A DNA stretch of 60,216 nucleotides, taken from positions 1 through 60,216 of the forward strand of contig JAEUUU010000071.1 of the NCBI GenBank assembly GCA_016787345.1, written 5' to 3'. A program made the translations under genes and the position numbers. The stretch's first letter is position 1, and each line of letters starts with the position of its first letter. This DNA is from Saprospiraceae bacterium. GTDB taxonomy: Bacteria > Bacteroidota > Bacteroidia > Chitinophagales > Saprospiraceae. The notes under the pieces were generated by a model. The model saw only the letters and a program-made list of their open reading frames with translations, had not been told where the DNA came from and made no database searches. Positions 5,015 through 43,139 of this stretch are shown one piece after another.

Positions 5015-5117
5015 GGGGTTGATGAGGGTGGATGAGGGCTGATGAGGTTTATAAAAAGGGTAGGCAATGCCCTCGATTTATAAACCTTATCAACCCTTAT
5101 CAACCCTCATCAACCCT
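5015..5117. repeat. Large imperfect palindrome built from 10-bp GTTGATGAGG-like tandem units
   Basis: The left arm (5015-5055) consists of three to four degenerate copies of GTTGATGAGG ending in TTTATAAA. The right arm (5077-5117) carries the complementary CCTCATCAAC units starting with TTTATAAA. The arms pair over about 40 bp with a few mismatches around a 21-base core that can itself form GGC/GCC. It fills the etfB-etfA gap and begins 3 bases after the etfB stop codon. It may act as an mRNA-stabilising or processing hairpin that sets the etfB:etfA ratio; that role is an inference. Confidence 0.85.
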
Positions 5118-7109: not shown

Positions 7110-8379
7110 AACCTTGCTGCTTTTGTTGGTTTTGCCCTTGCTTTTACCGCTGTCTGTCGGCGCGCAATCCAAAAAAGAATTGGAGGCCAAGCGCAAAAAA
7201 CTGATCAAAGACATCGAGGTAACGGGCAAATTGTTGCAAAAAACGACCAAAACCAAAGAAGCAACCTACGATCGCTTTGTCGCCCTCCAGAACCAGATCC
7301 AGTACCGCGAAAACCTGATCGCTACCCTCGACGAGGAAGCGCAGGAAGCCGAAGACGGTATCGCCCGCGCATCGGCGGTCATCAATTCGCTCACCCGCGA
7401 CGTGAATGCCATGCAGGACGAATACGGCCGGATGGTGCGAAACGCTTTCCGCCGCAAAATGCTGAGCAACCCGCTGCTCTTTATCCTCTCTGCCGACAAC
7501 CTCAACCAGGCTTTCCGCCGCTGGCTTTTCCTCCGAAAATACGACCGTATGCGCCGCGATCAGGCGCGCGCCATCGCGGCTACCCGCGACATGCTTTCCC
7601 GCAAAATGGCCGCCCTGGAAGATACCCGCCGGGAAAAAGAAGCCCTGCTGGCCTCCATGCAGGATCAAAAAAGCACCCTCGACAACGAACTGGTGCAAAA
7701 AGACAATCTGCTGAAAAACCTGGCCAAAGACGAAACCCGCCTGCGCTCCGACCTCGAAAAAAAGCAGGCGGCTCACGAGGCGCTCAACCGAATGATCGAA
7801 AACGTGATCCAGGAAGAAATACAGCGCAAAACCGCCGAAGCGCGCAAACCCGTCGCTACCCCACCCGCTACCAAACCTTCCACGCCCGCCAAATCTTCGG
7901 GCACGAATACCCCGACGCCAGCGGCCGAAACGCCACCTCCGCCAGCAGCAGGCGAAGACGAAGTTTCTGTCAATTTCCGCCGCAACTACGGCAAACTACC
8001 CTGGCCCGTCGAAAACGGCTTTATTGCCCGCGGCTACGGCCGGCAAAAACACCCCACGCTCAAAAACATCGAAATCACGAACAACGGCGTCGATATCCGC
8101 ACCGAAGAGGGCTCCTCCGTGCGCGCCGTTTTTGACGGAGAAGTCGCCGGCGTGCAATTTATCCCCGGTCACGACTACACGGTCATCCTCCAGCACGGCG
8201 ACTATTATACCGTGTACTCCAACCTGGCTGAAACTACCCTGACCAAAGGACAAAGCGTCAAAAGCCGCCAAAGTATCGGCAAAGTGAGTACCAACGCCAT
8301 CACAGGCGCCTCCGAACTGCACTTCGAATTGTGGTACCAGAAACAACGGCAGAACCCGGCGGGATGGATCAGGAAGTGA
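7045..8379 (+). CDS. EnvC-like coiled-coil protein with degenerate LytM (M23) domain
   Basis: The 444-residue product has a signal sequence (TLLLLLVLPLLLPLSVGAQS), a long coiled coil (about 35-260), a Pro/Thr/Ala-rich linker (about 265-310) and a C-terminal LytM/M23 domain (about 330-444). In the LytM domain the usual zinc-ligand histidine is replaced (NNGVDI instead of H.G.D) and the catalytic H of Y.HL is replaced (YSNL), while the last LHFEL histidine remains. This pattern matches EnvC-type proteins that activate amidases for septal peptidoglycan splitting rather than cutting it themselves. The start is either 7045 or 7057; both lie inside DUF4292, and a frame open further upstream is rejected because the signal sequence follows these codons. 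The stop overlaps the first unit of an 8-bp repeat array. Confidence 0.9.
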   Translation: MSRSMFRNLFDSKSLRITSGCKTLLLLLVLPLLLPLSVGAQSKKELEAKRKKLIKDIEVTGKLLQKTTKTKEATYDRFVALQNQIQYRENLIATLDEEAQEAEDGIARASAVINSLTRDVNAMQDEYGRMVRNAFRRKMLSNPLLFILSADNLNQAFRRWLFLRKYDRMRRDQARAIAATRDMLSRKMAALEDTRREKEALLASMQDQKSTLDNELVQKDNLLKNLAKDETRLRSDLEKKQAAHEALNRMIENVIQEEIQRKTAEARKPVATPPATKPSTPAKSSGTNTPTPAAETPPPPAAGEDEVSVNFRRNYGKLPWPVENGFIARGYGRQKHPTLKNIEITNNGVDIRTEEGSSVRAVFDGEVAGVQFIPGHDYTVILQHGDYYTVYSNLAETTLTKGQSVKSRQSIGKVSTNAITGASELHFELWYQKQRQNPAGWIRK

Positions 8380-8473
8380 TTGGGGGATTGGGGGATTGAA
8401 CGATTGGGGGATTGAACGATTGGGGGATTGGACGATTGGGGGATTGGACGATTGGGGGATTGGACGATTGGAG
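8378..8473 (+). repeat. Octamer tandem array (12 units of GATTGGGG/GATTGRAC)
   Basis: Exactly twelve consecutive 8-bp units of the form GATTGNNN are present, alternating GATTGGGG with GATTGAAC or GATTGGAC and ending GATTGGAG. The first unit overlaps the EnvC-like stop codon (TGATTGGGG). The G-rich strand is the coding strand of the upstream gene and contains runs of five Gs able to form a G-quadruplex. Related arrays occur at 10287-10374 and, inverted, at 10562-10636. Confidence 0.95.
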
Positions 8474-8496: not shown

Positions 8497-10308
8497 ATGA
8501 ATAAATTATCGTTATTGGCTTTTTGGGTCGCAAGCTGTTTGATTACCTGTACAGCCGTATTTTTTTATCCAAAATGGGAAAAAGAATACGATGAAGCAAT
8601 ATTAAGTTGGGACGTATCCGGCTACTACGCTTACCTGCCCGCCGCCTTCATCTATCGCGATCTGAAAGAGGCTGCATTTCTCGACCCTGTTATTCAACAA
8701 TACAAGCCTACCCCGGCGCGTATGCAGGGTTTTGAGCATCCATCGGGACATTTCGTGCTGAAATATTCGATGGGTCAGGCGCTGCAATACCTGCCCTGGT
8801 TTTTGTGCGCGCACGTGCTGGCCGAGCCTTTGGGTTATCCGGCCGACGGCTTTTCAAAACCATACCAATATGCGATCGGTTGGGGGAGTTTACTGGTGGC
8901 GATTATCGGGCTCTGGTTTGCCCGCCGCAACTTGCTGGAATACTTTTCCGACCGGGCAACTGCCATTGTATTGCTCTTACTCGTGGCGGGCACGAACTAC
9001 CTGAACTACACGGCTTTCGACGGAGCAATGACCCACAACTGGCTGTTCACAGCATACAGCTTGTTGATTTTCAGTACAATCAAATTTTACCGGCAACCGT
9101 CTGTGCGTTGGGCGGCCGCCATCGGCCTGCTTGTCGGGTGGATGACGCTGACCCGACCGACCGAGATAGTTTCTGTGCTCATACCCTTTTTCTGGGGAGT
9201 GGGCAACTGGCAGGCGCTGCGCGAACGTCTGCGCTTATTCAGCGTCAGTCGGGTCCAACTGGGTATCGCACTGCTTTGTGGTGGCGGTATGCTATTGCTC
9301 CAGATGGCCTACTGGAAATACGTCGCGGGCGAATGGATCGTATATAGCTATGAAGACCAGGGATTTAACTGGTTGCGCCCACATATCGTCAGCGTGCTGT
9401 TCAGTTATAAAGCCGGTTGGCTGACCTATTCGCCCATCCTGTTTTTGGCCCTCGCGGGTTTGTTTTTGTTAAAAAAACAACAGCCTTCGCTTTTTCCTCC
9501 AATCTTCTTTTTTTGCCTCTTATTTCTGTACATCACCTCGGCCTGGAACATCTGGTGGTATGGCGGCAGCTTGGGTATGCGTGCAATGGTACAAAGCTAC
9601 GCGGTATGGATATTCCCGCTTGCCGCATTTGTTAACTGGCTGATAATCAAGGGGGCGTGGGGCAAAATCACCCTGCTTTTCATCGCCATTCCGGCTTGCT
9701 GGATCAACTTGTGGTGGACCTATCAGGCGCACCGGCCACAGGGTCTTTTCGTCACGGAGCAAATGAACAAATCCCTGTACTGGCGGGGGCTTGATCCCCG
9801 GACTTCCGCACAGGACGTCAACCGCCTTTTGGATAATGCGGAGATCTATGACGGGAACAACCCCAAAAATCTCGAAACGCTGTTTCAAACAGGTTTTGAA
9901 AATGACACCGTCGCCGTTACCACGGAGCGGCCCATCAGCGGTCAGCGTTCCCTACGATTGAGCGGTGACATTCAATTTTCGCCGGAAATCAATCTGGAAC
10001 TCCCTTCTGAGTACCACACTTCCAAATACTGGCTGCGCACCACGGTGACATTCCGGGCAGAGCCCAAGGAATGGGAATGGTGGCTGATGACACAAATGAT
10101 CGTCCGTTTTTCGGCCGGTGGCGAAAAAGTAAAAGACAATATGCTTCGCCTCCAACGCTATGCCGACACCGGAATCACCAAAACGGTTTACCTCGACACA
10201 CAAATTCCCGATCGCTACTTCGATAAAGTAACCGTCTTTTTCTGGAACGGAGAAGGGCAAAAGGCCATCTGGCTGGATGATTTGACGATTGAACGATTGG
10301 GGGATTGA
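8497..10308 (+). CDS. Polytopic membrane protein, GT-C glycosyltransferase-like, with C-terminal soluble domain
   Basis: The ATG at 8497 starts a 603-residue protein; the longer frame from 8428 only adds residues translated from the repeat array. About ten transmembrane helices are visible between residues 5 and 405. The first extracytoplasmic loop contains an acidic, aromatic stretch (EYDEAILSWDVSGYYAYLP) in the place where GT-C enzymes carry their catalytic Asp/Glu. Residues 410-603 form a soluble beta-rich tail with GQRSLRLSG, as in carbohydrate-binding jelly rolls. A lipid-linked sugar transferase or polymer-modifying role is plausible but unproven. The last codons (IERLGD) and the stop are supplied by an 8-bp repeat array, so the native C terminus may have been altered. 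Confidence 0.7.
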   Translation: MNKLSLLAFWVASCLITCTAVFFYPKWEKEYDEAILSWDVSGYYAYLPAAFIYRDLKEAAFLDPVIQQYKPTPARMQGFEHPSGHFVLKYSMGQALQYLPWFLCAHVLAEPLGYPADGFSKPYQYAIGWGSLLVAIIGLWFARRNLLEYFSDRATAIVLLLLVAGTNYLNYTAFDGAMTHNWLFTAYSLLIFSTIKFYRQPSVRWAAAIGLLVGWMTLTRPTEIVSVLIPFFWGVGNWQALRERLRLFSVSRVQLGIALLCGGGMLLLQMAYWKYVAGEWIVYSYEDQGFNWLRPHIVSVLFSYKAGWLTYSPILFLALAGLFLLKKQQPSLFPPIFFFCLLFLYITSAWNIWWYGGSLGMRAMVQSYAVWIFPLAAFVNWLIIKGAWGKITLLFIAIPACWINLWWTYQAHRPQGLFVTEQMNKSLYWRGLDPRTSAQDVNRLLDNAEIYDGNNPKNLETLFQTGFENDTVAVTTERPISGQRSLRLSGDIQFSPEINLELPSEYHTSKYWLRTTVTFRAEPKEWEWWLMTQMIVRFSAGGEKVKDNMLRLQRYADTGITKTVYLDTQIPDRYFDKVTVFFWNGEGQKAIWLDDLTIERLGD

Positions 10309-10374
10309 ACGATTGGACGATTGGGGGATTGAACGATTGAACGATTGGGGGATTGAACGATTGAACGATTGGAA
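10287..10374 (+). repeat. Octamer tandem array overlapping the 3' end of the membrane-protein gene
   Basis: Eleven 8-bp units (GATTGAAC, GATTGGGG, GATTGGAC, last GATTGGAA) run without interruption. The stop codon of the gene at 8497 lies in the third unit (10306-10308). It is the same family as 8378-8473 and faces the inverted array at 10562-10636 across a 187-base AT-richer core (10375-10561), in which I see no gene. Confidence 0.95.
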
Positions 10375-10561
10375 GCACCCAGATTCAGGAGGCGTTTTTG
10401 ATTGATTTTCAATGTTTTGGTTTAATTCGGTTGGTTTGAAGTTGATATTGATATTATATTCATCAAATCACATCGGTTTCTTAGAGTTGACGTTTAATGT
10501 ATTGAATACTCATCCGCGAAAACTTGCTGCGGCGCTTCCCTCCAATGACGGGACTGGGGTC

Positions 10562-10636
10562 AACCAATCGTTCAATCCCTCAATCGTCCAATCGTTCAAT
10601 CGTCCAATCCCCCAATCGTCCAATCCCCCAATCCCC
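10562..10636 (-). repeat. Octamer tandem array abutting the stop codon of the M1 peptidase gene
   Basis: Nine units of NNNCAATC on the plus strand (GATTGNNN on the minus strand) end in a partial unit that directly joins the TAG stop at 10636-10638. In the sense of the M1 gene the array therefore begins immediately after the stop codon, as at the other two octamer arrays. It is inverted relative to 10287-10374, so the two convergent transcripts would carry repeats with the same G-rich sense. Confidence 0.95.
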
Positions 10637-13780: not shown

Positions 13781-16477
13781 TTAGATTTTGATAATTTTTC
13801 CCTGATACCGCTTGTTGCAGGATTGGATACTGAACAAATAAACGCCCGGCAGCCAGTCGGCAGTCGAGATTTGTAAAGTATTGTCTGTCAAAGACTCCGC
13901 TCCCCGATACTGCCAATTGCCCTGCGCGCTCCACACTGCCCACTCGATGTTTTTACCGGGAAGATCCTCCATGGTGAGCCTGACTTGTTCGTTGGCCGGC
14001 TGAGGAAATACGCGGACAAGCGGCTGGCTGGACGAACTCGTGGTCTCAAGCCCTCCCGTGTTGAGTGTTACGCAATAATCTTTGACTTGCCCAAAAGGAA
14101 ACCATTCGCAGGCTTCGGGCGGGACGCCCTGCATTTCCTTGAATTTCAGCATAATGCGCAACCTTGTAGGACCGAATGCCCAAAAATCGGGCGTTTGCAA
14201 AAAACCGCTGTAAGCCACGTCGACGGCAAAACCGGGGTCGAATGCCAACTCGCCCCAATCGTCGAAATCACCGTCGGCATTGAAGTCGACAAAAATGCGC
14301 ATAAAGACCTTGGAGGCCGAACCAACATATCCGGGCCAGATGGTAACCGGTATTTGCGATGAGGGTAACAAAACCGGCAAATCGGATTGAATACCGGTAA
14401 AATCCTGGTAGCCGATAAACCCGCCCGAATTGTGCGACCAGGCGCCGATCTGAATGCCGGCAATCCATTCGGTATTGGCCGAAAGCCCCCCCGCAGTGCA
14501 GTACGAGGCGTCGGTGCAGGCGCCGCAGCCGGTTGTCGTGAAGAAATAGGTGGCGGAAAAAAGGGCGGTATCGGCGTTGCACAAGGTTTGCAAACGCATT
14601 TCGTAGGCAGTGCAGGGCAACAAACCCAGGCAACTTCCGCTCGTCGTATCAGACAGTGTAACCGAGGCCCAGGTATCGCTCCCTTGCGGTCGCCATTGCA
14701 GCATGTAACCGCTGGCAGCCGTGACGGGTGTCCAGTGAACCAACGTGTGGTAGGCGGTAATCGCGCTAAACCAAACTTGCGCGGGCGGCGTGCAGCAGCC
14801 ATCGGTTTGAAACAGCAAGGGAGCAGTCCAATCACTGCCGGTTCCATTGTCGCATGCGGATTGCAGGGCAAATTCATACGACTGACAAGGACTGAGTCCG
14901 GACAGTACAAAGGGAGCGCCGATGCCATCCAGTTCGTTCCACAAAGCCTGCCCCAGGGGGCGCCAGCGCAAAACGGCAGCAGTTGCATTGCCGGGCATTT
15001 GCCATTGTAAAACAGCCTGTTCGGTGGAAACCGGGTCGGCAAACAACGCAAAAGGCGCCGGGCAATCGCTGCAGGTTTGCGCCTCGTTGTCGAGCAACTG
15101 GAACAGATTGAGCCGTCCGTTGCTGACCGTGACGCCGGTAAGCGCTGCATTGGAGGTCGCATTTTCCAACAGCTTCATTTTTACTTCGAATGCTGCCGCG
15201 GCGGGGTTGGTTTTGGTCAATGCAATCAGTTCGGGGCAGTCGGATGAATACAGCAATCCGACGGCTCCGGTCACATGAGGCGCGGCAAAAGAAGTACCGC
15301 TAAAATAGGCGTAGTTGCTTCCGGAAGCAGTTGTGAAAACGCCGTCGCCATAGGCGCCCAAATCGACGTGCCCGACGCCCCATGCAGCGTTGGGCGCAAT
15401 TTGATCCGACTGGTTCAGGCTGGTTACCGCAACCAGATAATCGCTCGGGCAAGTGGTGGGCAAATCGCCCCATTGGTCGACGTCGATGGGCAAATTGGCA
15501 GTTGCAGCCACGGAGAGCACGCCCACCGATCCCAGCGTATCGAATGCCGCACACCACAGGGGCGAGTCATCAGGCTGGCCATAGTTAATGCCCCATGAAC
15601 AATTTACGGCTACGACAAAAGCGCCTTTCTGGCCATTGCTCAGGTTGTAAAGGCGGCGCGCCTGCCACACGTAATCGTAAGCGGAAAGGATGAACGATTC
15701 GAGTCCGCTACCGGCGACGCACATGATTTTGGTTTGCCAGTTGACCCCGCTGACCCCGATGCCGTTGTTGCCATTTGCGCCGATTATACCGCTTACGGGC
15801 GTACCGTGTGTAGTCAGCAGGCCCGAAATCTGGTCGTTCTGAGCATATACGTTCCAGCCGCGTCGGTCGTCGGCAAAGCCGTTCCCGTCGTTGTCGATCT
15901 GATCGCCGGGAATATCGGCCCAATTTACCCAAAGGTTGGAGGAAAGGTCGGGATGACCGGCATCGAATCCGCCGTCGATCACCGCCAGGACGATGGTATC
16001 ACCGGCGGCAGTCAACCCGCCCGTGCCAAGGTCCCAGGCTTCCGGCGCATCCAGATCGGCATTGGGAAGGCCGCCTCCTGCACCGGAATTGAGGTATTGC
16101 CATTGACTGCTGAACAGCGGGTCGTCGGGTATCGTCAACGAAGAGGACCTGATTTGCAGGATATGATCTGTTTGGGCGGCCAGTACTTCGGGCTGTTGGC
16201 GGTACCATTGCAGTGCAGCCAGAGTGGCGGTGGGCGTCGGTTCGCAGAAGACCAGCCAGACGTTCATCATCCGCGTCAGGCGCATGGGCGCCGGGAGGGA
16301 GTCGTATTTTTCAACAGTGGCGTATCGTTCGACCAGATGCTCCGGATGAATGGAATCGGGCAAACTGAGCAGCAAGCGCCCGGGCAAAAAATCGCTTTTA
16401 CCCTGCGCCGTTAGAGCCGATACAGCGATCAGTTGAAAAATGCAGGCTAAAAGCAGCGAAATACGGCCGTTATTCAT
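13781..16477 (-). CDS. Secreted subtilisin-like (S8) protease with Fn3, GEVED and T9SS type A sorting domains
   Basis: Starting at MNNGRISLLLACIFQ, the 898-residue protein carries a signal peptide and a propeptide-like region (about 25-115). The S8 domain has catalytic Asp in VLAVIDGGFD (about 167), His in THGTPVSG (about 222) and Ser in GTSFAAPHV (about 396). Two fibronectin III-like domains (about 470-560 and 561-650) each begin after a Cys-Pro motif. A GEVED domain (about 660-795) contains IGYQDFTG and FVDFNADGDFDDWGE. The C terminus (about 820-898) is a type A T9SS signal with RVFPQPANEQVRL and LPGVYLFSI. It is therefore expected to be secreted through T9SS and held at or released from the surface. 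A further upstream start at 16534 would place residues before the signal peptide and is unlikely. Substrates are unknown. Confidence 0.94.
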   Translation of the reverse strand: MNNGRISLLLACIFQLIAVSALTAQGKSDFLPGRLLLSLPDSIHPEHLVERYATVEKYDSLPAPMRLTRMMNVWLVFCEPTPTATLAALQWYRQQPEVLAAQTDHILQIRSSSLTIPDDPLFSSQWQYLNSGAGGGLPNADLDAPEAWDLGTGGLTAAGDTIVLAVIDGGFDAGHPDLSSNLWVNWADIPGDQIDNDGNGFADDRRGWNVYAQNDQISGLLTTHGTPVSGIIGANGNNGIGVSGVNWQTKIMCVAGSGLESFILSAYDYVWQARRLYNLSNGQKGAFVVAVNCSWGINYGQPDDSPLWCAAFDTLGSVGVLSVAATANLPIDVDQWGDLPTTCPSDYLVAVTSLNQSDQIAPNAAWGVGHVDLGAYGDGVFTTASGSNYAYFSGTSFAAPHVTGAVGLLYSSDCPELIALTKTNPAAAAFEVKMKLLENATSNAALTGVTVSNGRLNLFQLLDNEAQTCSDCPAPFALFADPVSTEQAVLQWQMPGNATAAVLRWRPLGQALWNELDGIGAPFVLSGLSPCQSYEFALQSACDNGTGSDWTAPLLFQTDGCCTPPAQVWFSAITAYHTLVHWTPVTAASGYMLQWRPQGSDTWASVTLSDTTSGSCLGLLPCTAYEMRLQTLCNADTALFSATYFFTTTGCGACTDASYCTAGGLSANTEWIAGIQIGAWSHNSGGFIGYQDFTGIQSDLPVLLPSSQIPVTIWPGYVGSASKVFMRIFVDFNADGDFDDWGELAFDPGFAVDVAYSGFLQTPDFWAFGPTRLRIMLKFKEMQGVPPEACEWFPFGQVKDYCVTLNTGGLETTSSSSQPLVRVFPQPANEQVRLTMEDLPGKNIEWAVWSAQGNWQYRGAESLTDNTLQISTADWLPGVYLFSIQSCNKRYQGKIIKI

Positions 16478-16710: not shown

Positions 16711-19700
16711 ATGAGTAATCCTCTACACTTTTACTACCCCTCGTTTGTCCGTTTTTTTTGCCTGGCTTTGGGGTTCAGTTTGTTGACGACTGTTGCGACG
16801 CAGGCTCAAAACAACTGCGATTGCACCAATTGCCCGCAGTTTATGCCCGACGGCTTTACCGGCACCTTTACCATCAACGTTCAAAATGCCAGCAATCCCA
16901 CCCTTGGGCAAAACGGTCAGGGTGTTTGCGGCGTTGTGCTAAATTTTGACCACGAGTATCTGGGCGACTTGTCCATCACGCTGACCTCTCCTTCCGGCCA
17001 GACCGTTACACTTGTCGGACCGATTGGTTTTTTTGGCCCGACCGACGGTACCACCTGGAATGTAACATTTCTCCCTTGCGGCGACTCTCCCAACCCGGAC
17101 CCCGGTTTTACGGCAAACTGGAACAACAATCAGGCTTGGGGGCTTTTTGGCAATTATTCCGGATCATACTACCCCAACAATGGGTGCCTGGAAAACTTCA
17201 CGGGCCCTGTCAACGGCACCTGGTCGCTTACAGTTACCGATGGTCAGGCGGTTGACGTGGGTAACTTTTACGACTATGAAATCATCTTTTGCGACCCTTC
17301 CGGAATCGATTGTTTTTCATGTGCAGCCAATGCCGGCAATCTCCTGCAGCCCGACGTAATTGCATGCGAAGGTTCTAACAACCTCAACCTCGATCTGCCG
17401 CCCTCCTACCCCGCGGGTGTCGACCCGCCGCCGTCGCCCGAATATTCCTATACTTATGTGATAGCCGGAACCGGCGGTATTATTCAGGCTTACGAACCCG
17501 TGCCTGACCTGACCGCTTATCCGCCCGGCCAATACACCATTTGCGGCATGTCCTACTTAACTGCCCAGGAAGGAGACATTCCGACACCCAACGGTTCGCT
17601 TACCATCCAGCAATTGACCACGCAGCTCAACTCTTCCGCTCCCCCGTTTTGTGGAAAAATCACGACCAACTGCGTCAACGTGACCATTAATCCTGCCCCG
17701 CAAGACCTGGAAGAGTTCGTGGAAGTTTGCGCACCGCAGTGTTATGTTTTTTACAACCAAACTTATTGCCAATCAGGCACTTTTGTACGCAACCTGACTA
17801 CCCCGCAGGGGTGCCCCTACACGGCCACGCTTTATCTTACGGTATACCAACCCTCGTTTAAAACGGTCAACGAGTTTGTTTGTGAAGACGCCTGCTCCCA
17901 AACACCCGGCTTTTCCTACGCCTGCTCGCCTGGCACCTATCAGGAGGTATTTACCAATGCAGCAGGCTGCGACAGTACGGTGACGCTGAACCTGTCGAAC
18001 GTGTTCGTGCAAGCCCTCATCGCCCAGCCGGTTCCGACGGTCGGCTGTACCGGCAACGTAACCCTGTCCGGCTTCGGCTCCACCTCCGGCGCGGGCACCA
18101 CCTACCTTTGGACGGCCAGCAACGGCGGCAATATCGTAGGGCCTACAACCAACATCAACGCCAGCATCAATGCCCCCGGCGACTATCAGCTGCGGGTGTG
18201 TCGTACAACCGCCGGTATCACTTGCTGCGACTCGATCGAAGTCGGCGTACAGGGCAACCAGAATCCGCCCGCCACGCCCGGCGCCATTACCGGCAACAAT
18301 GCCGTGTGTTCCGGGCAGTCCTATACTTTCTCGGTAGCCGCGGTGGCCGGCGCCAGCAGTTATACCTGGACTGTTCCGGCAGGAGTGACCATCACGGCCG
18401 GGCAAAACACCAGCAGCATTACCGTGCAGTGGAACAGTACTTCCGGCGGTGACGTATGCGTCACAGCCACCAATGCCTGCGGCACCAGCCAGCCCAGTTG
18501 CCTGACTGTCAGCGCTTCACAAATCCCGGTGGCCACTACCCCGCAAGGCAACACCACCGTTTGCGGTAACGCAACCCAGAATTATTCCATTCCGGCCATT
18601 GCCAATGCTACTACCTACAACTGGACGGTTACCGCACCGGCTGTAATCAGCAGTGGGCAGGGCACCAACCAGATCACGGTCAACTGGAACGGCGCGCCGG
18701 CTTCCAGTACGGTTTGTGTCAGTGCCGGCAACAATTGTGGCAACAGCGCGCCTGTTTGTCTGCCGGTTACCGTCGGCTCAACACCAGCCAGTCCGACCGT
18801 CAGCGGCAGCAATTCCGCCTGTGCAGGCGGCGTGGCTACTTATACGGTTGCCAATGTGCCGGGCGCAACTTCGTACAACTGGACAGTTACCAATGGTACG
18901 ATCACCAGCGGGCAGGGAACAAGCAGTATCCAGGTTAGTTGGAACGTCAATGCCGCTTCCGGCACCGTGTGCGCCAATGCCTCCAACGCATGCGGCGCCA
19001 GCACCGACAATTGTTTTAACCTCACTTTGAGCCCGGCGCCGGCGCAACCGGACATTACCGGCGACGCCACGCTCTGTGCCGGCTCCTCTGGCGATTATAC
19101 GATTGCACCCGTTGGCGGCGCTACCGGTTACGTCTGGACGGTACCCGCTGGAGCAAGTATCAGCAGCGGCCAGAATACAACAGCCATCAGCGTTGCCTGG
19201 CCTAACGGAAATCCCGGCGGCAACGTCTGCGTCTCGGCGGCAGGCGGTTGCGGTACTGGTCCGCAAGACTGCTTCCCGGTTGTGATCGACGTAGTGCCGG
19301 TTGCCAATGCCGGGCCCGATGCCGCGATTTGCGGTACGCAGATTAGCCTGACTGCAGTACCCAGTGTTGCGGGCAGTAACGGCCAGTGGGTGCTGGCTTC
19401 GGGGCCAGGAACCGCCACTTTCGACAACGCCAGCCAGCCTGCTACCAACGTAACGGTAAGCCAAATCGGGCTCTACATTTTCCAATGGACAGAAACCAAT
19501 GTCATTTGTGTGGATCAGGATTCGGTAAGCATTAATTTTAATGCCGCTCCTGCAGCCGGTTTGATCACGCACGACTGCGACAATACCAACCAGAACTTCA
19601 CGGTTTCCTTCCCGGTTTCCGGCGGCGCAGCCCCCTATACGATTCCGGGCGGAACGATCAGCGGCGGTATTTTTACTTCCGATCTGATTCCCAACAGCCA

Positions 19701-40490: not shown

Positions 40491-41777
40491 TCACTGCGGC
40501 AAACGGCGTTGCCCGTTGGTATTGGCAGGCTGACGACTGATCTGTCCGGGCTGATTGGCTGGCGCCGTACCCTGCCGTTGGGCTTCCATGACGTCGGGCG
40601 AAGGCGTGCCCTCAAACCGCACTTCCAGTTTGTAGTTGCGGCCCATCGACTTCACTACGGGGCCCATCATCAACTGCATGACCGTGTCGGCACGGGCCTT
40701 GGCGTGTTCCAGTACATGCTCGTTGTTGATGGCATCATCGCGAAACTGACGCCGCAAGGCATTGAAATTCTCGTTCATTTCCTGCCCGCTGATACCCGCC
40801 AACAGCCCGACGTCGAGCTTGTCGACGCGCGGATAAACTTCGTGCGAAAGGATGGTCGGCTGCGGTAATTTGACGTAGACAATGCCCTTGCTCGGGCTGA
40901 ACGTTACGTCAAAAAACTGGTCGAGTTTGAAGCCGGCCTTAATCACGCTGATTGCTTCGATTTGGATATCCGTCTCAGAAATAGAAAACCCGAACACCTT
41001 GTATTGCAGCGTTTTATCCATTGCCAGGCGACTGCGCAATTCGTAGGTACCCAGTTCGGCAATACCCACCCTGACCTTCTCTTTCAGCAGCCCACGCGAG
41101 GCGGAAAAATCATAAATCGCGGCTTTTTTCTGCAAGCGGTCGACCATAGGCCGCAAAGCCTCGTTGATGGCCAGGTCGCAGGGCGTCCCTACGTCTTTTC
41201 CCTTTCCGACAAAACGGCCGTTGCTGACTTTCAACAAGGTGGCCATGATTTGCGTGACGAAAAAACAGGTGTATTTGCCCGCTACTTCATTAAAAATCTG
41301 GACTGCCTGATTGGCATTGTCGTTGTAAAACGTTTCGTATAAACTCGCCGTAGTATCCTTCAAGGCCACGAAATCGTTGAAATACATGGTTTTCAGATAA
41401 TCGTGATGCTGCTGATACATCGGTTCGAGCCGCCGTTTGAGGCTATCGGGCAGATTCATCCGGTTGGCGACGTGGTACAGCAACGACAGGTTGAAATTGT
41501 ACACCAACGCATCGAATTCCTTGCGGTTTTTGGTCGGATCGGCGAGTATGCGCAGGGTGGATTCTTCATCGAGATTGGGCTGAAAATCCGAGGGTACGTA
41601 GGTCAACTGCACGTCTTTGGGTTTGTCGCCAAACAAACCCGACAGCCCGCCGTCGGCCAGAAAGGTTTTGTAAATCACGATGCCGGCAATAATCACCAAA
41701 GCCAGCAAAAGAATCTGTTTGCCAAACATTGCGCCGCCGGTTTCGTCGGAGGGCGCGTCGGGTTGATGTGTTGCCAT
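40491..41777 (-). CDS. DUF4230 family membrane-anchored protein
   Basis: The ATG at 41777 (MATHQPDAPSDE) gives 428 residues. The frame is open upstream only because the heptamer array has no stops, and those residues (TPNAQ/TPNTQ repeats) are not real protein. One transmembrane helix (about 18-40, GKQILLLALVIIAGIVIY) leads into an extracytoplasmic domain. The central part resembles DUF4230 proteins, with VRVGIAELGTYELRSRLAMDKTLQYKVFGFSISE followed by IKAGFKLDQFFDVTFSP and IVYVKLPQPTILSHEV. The C-terminal tail is Gln/Pro-rich. The function is unknown. The gene begins 4 bases from a repeat array, so its upstream region has probably been remodelled. Confidence 0.8.
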   Translation of the reverse strand: MATHQPDAPSDETGGAMFGKQILLLALVIIAGIVIYKTFLADGGLSGLFGDKPKDVQLTYVPSDFQPNLDEESTLRILADPTKNRKEFDALVYNFNLSLLYHVANRMNLPDSLKRRLEPMYQQHHDYLKTMYFNDFVALKDTTASLYETFYNDNANQAVQIFNEVAGKYTCFFVTQIMATLLKVSNGRFVGKGKDVGTPCDLAINEALRPMVDRLQKKAAIYDFSASRGLLKEKVRVGIAELGTYELRSRLAMDKTLQYKVFGFSISETDIQIEAISVIKAGFKLDQFFDVTFSPSKGIVYVKLPQPTILSHEVYPRVDKLDVGLLAGISGQEMNENFNALRRQFRDDAINNEHVLEHAKARADTVMQLMMGPVVKSMGRNYKLEVRFEGTPSPDVMEAQRQGTAPANQPGQISRQPANTNGQRRLPQ

Positions 41778-41781
41778 AGTC

Positions 41782-41861
41782 GGGTGTTGGGTGTTGGGTG
41801 TTAGGCGTTGGGCGTTGGGCGTTGGGCGTTGGGTAAAAGGTGTATTACTGCTCTCGATATG
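41782..41861 (+). repeat. Heptamer array C: (GGGTGTT/GGGCGTT)n followed by the 22-bp tail motif
   Basis: About seven units of GGGTGTT changing to GGGCGTT (41782-41833) are followed by AAAAGGTGTATTACTGCTC and TCGATATG (41835-41861). The same tail occurs at 42115-42146 and, inverted, at 42226-42257. The G-rich strand is the plus strand. The array starts 4 bases from the DUF4230 start codon. Confidence 0.9.
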
Positions 41862-41935
41862 CCTGGCGTTGGGCGGTTTATTTCCGCTCATGCGTGGGGG
41901 TAAAAACAAGCGTCTACCGAATTATTACAAAAATG

Positions 41936-41956
41936 CAGGATTTCTCCGAAATCCTG
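41936..41956. other. Short perfect hairpin
   Basis: CAGGATTTC and GAAATCCTG form a perfect 9-bp stem around the loop TCC. It lies in the roughly 180-base stretch between heptamer arrays C and A, where there is no credible gene. It has no T tract and could be a REP-like element or an RNA structure. Confidence 0.5.
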
Positions 41957-42042
41957 ATCTGAACGACGCCTTTGTATGATTTCTTTTCAAGTAGGTATGA
42001 AATTCTCCCCCGTCGAATTATACCGATACGCGCCACAATTTC

Positions 42043-42146
42043 CGAGCGCAGAAATACACCTGTTGGTTTTTTGGGTTTTGGGTTTTGGGTTTTGGGGGTT
42101 GGGTTTTGGGTTTTGGCAAAAAGGTGTATTCCTGCTCTCGAAATTC
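42043..42146 (+). repeat. Heptamer array A: telomere-like (GGGTTTT)n bracketed by inverted 19-bp motifs
   Basis: CGAGCGCAGAAATACACCT (42043-42061) stands before, and AGGTGTATTCCTGCTCTCG (42122-42140) after, a G-rich array of GGGTTTT/GGGGGTT units (about 42066-42116). The two flanks are inverted copies of each other with two mismatches, so the unit looks like a miniature element of about 98 bp with terminal inverted repeats. The array contains at least six runs of three or more Gs with loops of 2 to 4 bases, an ideal G-quadruplex sequence. Confidence 0.88.
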
Positions 42147-42225
42147 ATAGCGCATAGCCGTGTACGTATGGTTTTACAGCGGCAGGCTTTGCCACTATAA
42201 GCAGTAATAAAACGAATTAGGCCGG

Positions 42226-42290
42226 GAATTTCGAGAGCAGGAATACACCTTTTTGCCAAAACCCAACCCCCAAAACCCAACCCCCAACCC
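42226..42290 (-). repeat. Heptamer array B: inverted partner of array A, abutting the dienelactone hydrolase stop codon
   Basis: On the minus strand this reads, from the TAG stop at 42291-42293, GGGGTTGGGGGTTGGGTTTT and further units, then GGCAAAAAGGTGTATTCC and the rest of the same tail motif. It is the inverted partner of array A with about 65-bp arms and a 79-base core (42147-42225). The array begins directly after the stop codon. Confidence 0.9.
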
Positions 42291-43139
42291 CTATTTCCCT
42301 TGTAAATAAGCCCTCACCACCGCCCGTGAAGCCTTGGCCTCCGCGTCGTTGTAGCGAGGGCTGCTGGGGTTGGCAAACGCGTGGTTGGCGTCGTAGCGGT
42401 GAACGGTGAGCGTTTTGCCCGCCGTTTTCATATTGGCTTCGAACTCGCCAACGACGGCGTCGGTAATCCATTGGTCCTGTTTGGCGTGGATGAACAGCAC
42501 GTCGGAGGAAAGGCTGCGCAGTTTGTCCAGGTCTTTCTCCGGCATTCCGTAGTACATCACGCAGCCCTTGGCGCGGTCGCCCAGGGCCAGCGCGGCTTGC
42601 AAGGACCAGCCGCCGCCGAAGCACCATCCGAGGGTGCGAAAATCGGCGGCATCGCCGGCGTATTTGGCGGCGCCTTTGATGAGTGCAATGGAGCGGGTCG
42701 GGTCGTTGGCCTGCATGAGCATGCCGGCGCTGTCGGGCGAGGCGGTTACCTTGCCGTCGTACAGATCGATCGCCATGACGTTGATCCCCAATTGATGGCA
42801 CCACATGGCCGTTTCGTTTTTGACGTAGTCGTTGAGCCCCCACCATTCATGAAAAATGAGCAGGTACTTGTTGGTTTGGGCATGGCTTTTCATCAAAAAA
42901 GCCCGGCCATTGGGTCCGCCTTCTACCGGAAATTCTACCATAACACCCGCGTGAACACCCTCAACCGGGGCCGGAGCAGGGTGTGCATTGCGGAATTGGG
43001 CATCACTGGCAAAAGAAGCGAATTGCGCAACGGCCATGTTCGGGTCGTGGCACATAGGAATAGCGTTCCGGGTAGTTTGTCGGCAGGCAGCCAGCACGAG
43101 AACGAAGCAAAGCAGGGAAAAAAGTCGCATAACGATCAA
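42291..43139 (-). CDS. Dienelactone hydrolase-family lipoprotein
   Basis: The 282-residue protein starts with a lipoprotein signal (FVLVLAAC, acylated Cys at about 19). Its alpha/beta-hydrolase domain matches dienelactone hydrolase: nucleophile Cys in GWCFGGG (about 173), Asp in HAKQDQWI (about 220) and His in DANHAFANPSSPRYN (about 253). The strand-helix FHEWWGLNDYVKNETAMW contains the family's oxyanion/binding Glu-Trp motif. Such enzymes hydrolyse dienelactones or other esters; an envelope-bound member may act on exogenous esters. M4 (MRLFSL) is an equally possible start. Its 3' end joins heptamer array B, and it follows the RlmI gene by 24 bases on the same strand, so cotranscription is likely. 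Confidence 0.93.
   Translation of the reverse strand: MIVMRLFSLLCFVLVLAACRQTTRNAIPMCHDPNMAVAQFASFASDAQFRNAHPAPAPVEGVHAGVMVEFPVEGGPNGRAFLMKSHAQTNKYLLIFHEWWGLNDYVKNETAMWCHQLGINVMAIDLYDGKVTASPDSAGMLMQANDPTRSIALIKGAAKYAGDAADFRTLGWCFGGGWSLQAALALGDRAKGCVMYYGMPEKDLDKLRSLSSDVLFIHAKQDQWITDAVVGEFEANMKTAGKTLTVHRYDANHAFANPSSPRYNDAEAKASRAVVRAYLQGK

Follow-up and report, generated by a model that had tools for sequence, protein, structure and literature searches.

Dispersed array-armed hairpin elements near gene 3′ ends in a Saprospiraceae genome

Positions 41782–42291 of the window, the 60,216-nt stretch of DNA analysed here (contig C36 of a 5.28 Mb Saprospiraceae draft genome in 191 contigs), hold, side by side, two copies of a non-coding, dispersed hairpin element, element 1 (41782–42063) and element 2 (42069–42291). 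Inverted copies of a conserved motif, M (AAAGGnnnnTTnCTGCTCTC), form the core of the element, and tandem arrays of short units extend its arms. Copies are dispersed across the genome and lie mostly nearest to gene 3′ ends, their paired arms can form hairpins and covary, and their sites have changed relative to a sister genome that also carries M, the MAG Saprospiraceae SJ871. On balance, we favour the reading that these are foldback- or REPIN-like hairpins at gene 3′ ends that would act as bidirectional terminators and whose arms would be kept alike by template switching.

Results

Two elements with one layout

Element 1 begins with a left array of GGGTGTT/GGGCGTT units on the plus strand (41782–41833; GGGCGTT in the TRF output) that ends at the start of a DUF4230 gene at 41777, followed by its left arm, an M copy with 0 mismatches (41836–41855, plus strand). 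Its right arm is an inverted copy, M′, with 2 mismatches (42044–42063, minus strand), whose own array is missing. Element 2 carries a left array of GGGTTTT units (42069–42116, plus strand; TTTTGGG by TRF), an M copy with 0 mismatches (42120–42139, plus strand), a spacer of 93 nt (42140–42232, delimited by the M and M′ coordinates and the fold), an M′ copy with 0 mismatches (42233–42252, minus strand) and a right array (42256–42291, minus strand; two overlapping TRF rows of CCCAACC type) that reaches the stop codon of a dienelactone hydrolase gene ending at 42291 and leaves the coding strand G-rich. Both flanking genes, assigned by Pfam, lie on the minus strand. At ≤3 mismatches M occurs at these four window sites, with 0.00 expected from 100 dinucleotide shuffles. 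The left array of element 1 is shorter in SJ871, where the GGGCGTT units are absent, and the SJ871 contigs end around the site corresponding to element 2. A palindrome scan also found a REP-like palindrome, CAGGATTTCGGAGAAATCCTG, in the element 1 spacer (41936–41956), a further dispersed repeat with the same or a near sequence at loci L028, L141 and L146 and in many places of SJ871.

A first-pass annotation had described three heptamer arrays sharing one motif within ~510 bp, which TRF and the motif scan both recover, and had interpreted a 98-bp motif–array–motif unit as a miniature element with terminal inverted repeats. An inverted-repeat structure resembling a miniature element is indeed present, but the 98-bp unit is the junction between two elements (42044–42139 by the 20-bp pattern): among 103 neighbouring motif pairs in clusters of the focal genome, 54 face each other, 47 point in the same direction and only 2 point outward, one of which is this unit. 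Across loci a single grammar holds, gene / array> M> spacer <M′ <array′ / gene, a long hairpin in which the array lies 5′ of AAAGG and CTGCTCTC faces the spacer and the inverted partner. The 66 clusters of the focal genome (≤4 mismatches) comprise 32 plain facing pairs, 11 singletons and, for the rest, multiples such as >>><. Gaps within facing pairs (54 in the focal genome, 40 in the sister) cluster near 36 and 69 nt, and 16 focal spacers of 33–38 nt are mostly dissimilar in sequence (3 of 120 comparisons above 0.8; mean 0.45 versus 0.38 after shuffling).

Distribution of M

The local form of M has 177 copies in the focal genome at ≤3 mismatches (reversed control 0), and the consensus AAAGGGTTATTNCTGCTCTC has 190 copies there at ≤2 mismatches (control 1) and 194 in SJ871 at ≤3 (control 2); both assemblies are drafts broken at repeats, so each count is a minimum, and clusters of several copies may appear merged. 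The earlier suggestion of a conserved, dispersed motif tied to arrays is thereby borne out, with copies beside arrays throughout the genome, and uniqueness to this locus, which the annotation itself had named as the outcome that would count against it, does not hold in either genome. Whether the motif always borders arrays has a divided answer: a crude word count puts array-type sequence next to 156 of 161 focal copies, but a 17-bp part of the motif recurs as the core of an array-free repeat (below).

Beyond these two genomes M is rare. Five of 99 other family genomes have one 2-mismatch match each, isolated and never adjoining an array, and in the same-genus genome G040 a single match appears when 3 mismatches are allowed, with none at 2. 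Exact matching against the GTDB r220 species genomes, from which the focal genome may be absent, returned 12 stretches, of which 11 belong to SJ871 and one, lacking an array, to Brenneria. Exact consensus matches in IMG/VR numbered 0, and carriage by phage was rejected on that count.

Elements lie between genes, mostly at 3′ ends

Location was assessed in 1.49 Mb of the focal genome, sampled as stretches of which 0.40 Mb had been fetched around motif hits, with genes called by a simple codon-usage caller written for this analysis. None of the 109 M copies in this sequence lies in a gene, counting at least one copy (L122) that is a core of the REP type described below. The nearest gene end is a 3′ end for 79 copies (median distance to the stop codon 45 nt) and a 5′ end for 30, mostly farther away. 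Among intergenic regions of ≥40 nt, M was present in 0 of 182 divergent, 23 of 99 convergent and 23 of 422 tandem regions (Fisher 8e-7, hit-centred stretches included). The other 1.09 Mb, in which consecutive contigs C1–C27 were sampled minus seven contigs with known hits, gave 0/128, 7/63 and 9/298, respectively (p = 0.009); this set still contained the window and L269, both chosen on hits, and a recount excluding both gave 0/119, 6/57 and 7/282 (0/119 versus 13/339, p = 0.025).

Short arrays of any kind followed the same order in that recounted set (divergent 9/119, convergent 14/57, tandem 57/282; p = 0.0007), and since these counts exceed the M-bearing ones, arrays are commoner than M. Where an array lay nearest a 3′ end, the G-rich strand was the coding strand in 66 cases and the template in 31 (stretches not centred on hits). 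In single stretches from 20 other family genomes, the intergenic 7–9-mer arrays are built of different units and show no clear 3′-end preference (convergent 2/25, tandem 20/122, divergent 4/35), and G040 has almost no arrays (2/86); the 3′-end pattern is therefore shown for the focal genome only.

Two other roles were considered for the locus. A promoter was rejected, as positions 41700–42400 contain no sigma-70-like site and none of the 182 divergent regions contains M; a known RNA family was rejected as well, all 4 Rfam matches falling below the gathering score.

Covarying arms and a terminator-like layout

The two arms of an element resemble each other more than chance partners do. In the 54 focal facing pairs, arm mismatches average 1.89 compared with 3.35 for shuffled partners (minimum of 2000 shuffles 2.93), and in the 40 sister pairs 2.02 compared with 3.15 (minimum 2.73). 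Positions 6–10 and 12 of M are variable and often changed on both arms, and A1, G4 and T11 are invariant in 108 of 108 focal arms, with C13 and C18 conserved in 107. This covariation may stem from selection for base pairing or from one arm being copied from the other.

The predicted fold of element 2, on the strand entered from the dienelactone hydrolase gene, has an energy of −134.9 kcal/mol (z −15.7), with 0 of 200 shuffles as low. A run of ≥4 A precedes the GG of M at 155 of 161 focal copies, so that the layout of an intrinsic terminator, a stem leading directly into a T-run downstream of genes, is found at these copies. Given GG/CC closing the M/M′ stem and an A/T run of ≥4 next to it on both strands, the structure could act as an intrinsic terminator in either direction, and on this layout the element probably ends transcription at gene ends. 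A simple terminator scan called 3 sites (1.6 in shuffles) and did not pick the M hairpin because it limits loops to 3–8 nt and the M loop is long. Several observations temper the terminator reading. Absence from divergent regions, a weaker signal once hit-selected stretches are excluded, would also be expected from harm to promoters, and the invariance of T11, C13 and C18, like the recurrence of the same core in a repeat lacking a T-run, is not explained by a bare terminator. Recognition of M by a protein or RNA, as proposed in the first-pass annotation, is possible.

REP-type repeats and RAYT genes

The same features could belong to a selfish REPIN- or MITE-type element moved by a RAYT (Y1 HUH) transposase of its own genome, surviving at 3′ ends through purging from genes and promoters and resembling a terminator incidentally. 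Inverted doublets, preferred spacer lengths and covarying arms are all reported for REPINs (PMC3116915). Furthermore, the focal genome has four Y1_Tnp genes, and one of them, a RAYT on contig C151, adjoins repeats of a type that lacks arrays and the A/T run and has the 17-bp core of M, GGnnnnTTnCTGCTCTC, beside a GTAG-type REP palindrome. This core has 96 matches in the focal genome, 57 in SJ871 and none across 149 other genomes of the family. By eye, however, the GTAG palindrome occurs only in the REP-type repeat with the 17-bp core and in none of the array-type M copies inspected. At 5 mismatches no M was found in the loci of three of the Y1_Tnp genes, and the C151 locus has the REP-type core in place of array-type M, which led us to reject the presence of a RAYT gene beside array-type M. 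No relative of the C151 RAYT was detected at E 0.001 in the sister, a fragmented assembly in which M copies are nonetheless as many; 8 of 11 other family genomes searched have one. An A/T run at 155 of 161 copies would also be unexpected of a mere passenger. We regard movement by a resident RAYT as possible but doubtful. Two of the Y1_Tnp genes (L176 on C137 and L177 on C72) have palindromic repeats of their own, of GCCGCGATGCGGC and GCCCAGGGCTGAAGCCCTGGGC types, which by eye are further REP families.

Several array families on one core, and several cores with arrays

One M is bordered by at least four array families of 7–10-mers. Word counts, which misassigned two pairs, place 7-mers (GGGTTTT/GGGTGTT) beside 95 of 161 focal copies (≤3 mismatches), GAGGATTT/GAGGATGC 8-mers beside 36, GGTGAATT/GGTTATT 8-mers beside 18 and GGTTGATGAG-type 10-mers beside 7, with none of the four beside 5. 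On the motif strand the arrays contain 0–7% C. The likeness to telomeres and quadruplexes that had been taken as the essence of the locus does not extend to the family: the same M borders GAGGATTT, GGTGAATT and GGTTGATGAG arrays, and a quadruplex pattern adjoins only 31 of the 161 copies, and none of the 54 whose arrays belong to the two 8-mer families, so we rejected it as a common property.

The arrays might alternatively be free microsatellites expanding at gene ends, with M an unrelated terminator alongside by chance, and most array-bearing regions do lack M: in stretches not centred on hits, arrays occur in 79 of 361 convergent or tandem regions and arrays together with M in 15. This is unlikely on several grounds. 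Of 94 facing pairs, 79 have arrays of one family on both arms, the other 15 comprising 11 with one arm unclassified, 2 misassigned and 2 true mixtures; within a family, the two arrays at one locus resemble each other more than arrays from separate loci do (6 of 6 tests, p ≤ 0.034); array families change on both arms together between the two genomes (below); and an unrelated core is likewise double-sided.

This second core, N (GGCCTCCCCCAnCCCCTCC...), is bordered by GATTG-type 8- and 9-mer arrays. It matches 25 times in the focal genome and 24 times in SJ871. Of six other family genomes, five have no match, and the sixth, in which the control also matches, has a single one at 3 mismatches. Eleven N loci were examined, of which 10 are complete pairs (7 focal, 3 sister), nine of 215–220 bp and one of 337 bp, and by eye all 10 have arrays on both sides. 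The window holds a decayed N element between convergent genes (10285–10636, no strand assigned), with a GATTGG-type array, a degenerate N core and an inverted array recognised from TRF and alignment; its best alignment scores to the 10 N elements are 30–53, against shuffled maxima of 21–24. At 10285–10308 the array overlaps the end of a coding frame, the last residues of the protein (..LTIERLGD) being read from array units.

A genome from a different genus, G061, has 8 GGTTTGGAAGnGCTAGCCCTTTTCA-like words (control 0), with array units on at least one side in the 7 loci inspected. One stretch of G061 (L174) contains long intergenic arrays at 15605–16045 and 18572–19013 (GTTGAATT, GGGAGTA, ~26 units) as inverted arms around short cores such as TGGCCTTCGGCC. 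Two further array loci lie in the window. An GATTGGGG/GATTGGAC 8-mer array runs from a stop codon between same-strand genes (8378–8471), with neither M nor a complete N core, and GGTTGATGAG-type 10-mer arrays form inverted arms around AAAAAGGGTAGGCAATGCCCTCG (5016–5117), perhaps a decayed or different core.

Changes between two close genomes

Orthologous-site flanks in the focal genome and SJ871 are 87–100% identical, mostly 93–98%. Of 54 sister clusters, 22 could be paired with focal sequence on both flanks and 12 on one side, leaving 20 unpaired; sister clusters were fetched because M was present, which makes absences in the sister invisible to this comparison. Spacer orientation is the same in 9 of the 22 pairs and inverted in 5 (pairs 1, 4, 8, 18 and 20, above the shuffled 95% level), with pair 14 also inverted by eye. 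Three pairs (13, 15 and 17) carry another array family on both arms, as does the first of two elements in pair 8. Pair 11 has swapped arm variants around an uninverted spacer, and three pairs (5, 10 and 12) are rearranged and not comparable; pair 10, an empty site by length, was rejected as such because an M′ copy is retained in the focal DNA. In pair 19 the element is absent from the focal genome, and its junction fits an insertion with at most a 2–4 nt T duplication and a deletion between short T repeats equally. Sites that differ between close relatives, for which the first-pass annotation had proposed looking, thus exist, one without an element and others with inversions and changes of array family. 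A DDE-transposase MITE would have a fixed terminal inverted repeat and a target-site duplication; the termini here are variable arrays, and the short T duplication allowed at pair 19 may equally be the trace of a deletion.

Inverted spacers, seen in 5 of 14 score-orientable pairs and a sixth by eye, could point to an invertible element, its spacer turned around by a site-specific recombinase that works on M and M′. We consider this very improbable. At a 3′-end position a flip would switch nothing obvious, and in pairs 1, 4 and 18 the motif variants travel together with the spacer, which therefore puts the point of exchange within the arrays or at the outer border of M. Switching of template between inverted repeats is described as homogenising arms and inverting spacers (PMC8604942). 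It offers one account of both the flips and the similarity of the arms, and much of the change between the two genomes would then require no special recombinase. Replacement of the array family on both arms takes more than template switching. Nested mixtures at L113:11180–11433 and L099:15361–15667 look like intermediates in which one element sits inside another.

Discussion

The observations can be assembled into a mechanism for the favoured reading, a foldback- or REPIN-like terminator hairpin. An array with almost no C would find a good pairing partner only in the opposite arm, thereby lengthening the stem set by M and M′. Polymerase switching template between the arms would keep them alike and flip spacers, and slippage would change the number of units. 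Spread to new gene ends may occur through a transposase acting in trans, the likeliest route. The swapped arms and uninverted spacer of pair 11 and the 30 of 109 copies nearest 5′ ends count against this reading.

Parts of the arrangement have counterparts elsewhere. G-rich heptamer arrays, stop-proximal in both cases, are reported as GGGAATC in Xanthomonas, where they are also found at convergent pairs, and as GGGGA(C/T)T in Nostoc (PMC4692102); TAACTGA heptamers are reported from genomes including some Bacteroidetes (PMC4679880). As here, GGGAATC-type arrays are stop-proximal with a G-rich coding strand, and their functional role was still to be elucidated according to the authors of that study (PMC4692102). 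They differ in having a quadruplex-capable unit, a pattern confined here to the minority of copies given above. In the portions of these reports on which we draw, no conserved core between arrays is described and each genome has one unit family, compared with at least four on one core here (PMC4692102, PMC4679880).

REPINs and GTAG REP dimers share with the present element the inverted doublets of a conserved word, a variable spacer of constrained length, compensatory changes and tandem clusters (PMC3116915, PMC3733652); the array type described here differs in lacking the GTAG palindrome, in having array arms outside the conserved word and in its A/T run. Hairpin-loop inversion and template switching are reported with the same homogenised arms and inverted spacers (PMC8604942, PMC8794818; chloroplast, PMC2903610), mostly at single loci, whereas here a dispersed family is involved. 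Paired uptake words of Neisseria and Pasteurellaceae also form terminator stems from inverted copies of one conserved word (PMC1852404), but that M is such a DNA uptake word is highly improbable given ~190 copies compared with generally 1,000 or more (PMC1852404), the lack of any of the 109 sampled copies in genes, where uptake words are common (PMC2346458), and its array arms.

Eukaryotic foldback transposons (FB, Galileo, Tetris), in the accounts we draw on, likewise have long inverted arms with internal tandem repeats and show structural turnover, and the present element has the foldback layout of inverted, tandemly repeated arms around a variable middle. Those transposons are eukaryotic, with known transposases in some, whereas the element here is non-coding and ~0.2 kb. 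They are also far larger.

Arrays alone are therefore a known kind of repeat and the inverted doublet is REPIN-like; we did not find the combination with array arms described, and among the literature matches listed there is no description of motif M or of array-armed hairpins in Saprospiraceae. More tentatively, we hypothesize that, at least in Saprospiraceae, intergenic 7–10-mer arrays may be the growing arms of a bacterial class of foldback elements rather than free microsatellites. At the hairpin base the polymerase would slip and switch template, units would multiply outward on both arms, and unrelated cores (M, N and GGTTTGGAAGnGCTAGCCCTTTTCA in G061), armed alike, would settle after stop codons and act as terminators.

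A poorly explained kind of bacterial repeat is here tied to fast-rearranging hairpin elements: at gene 3′ ends the arrays come joined to a conserved hairpin core, and two close genomes differ by swaps, inversions and presence or absence. With several array families found on one core, and several cores sharing the array layout, the roles of core and array can be tested separately. If the favoured reading is right, the family would show how gene-end hairpins spread and are rebuilt across a bacterial genome.
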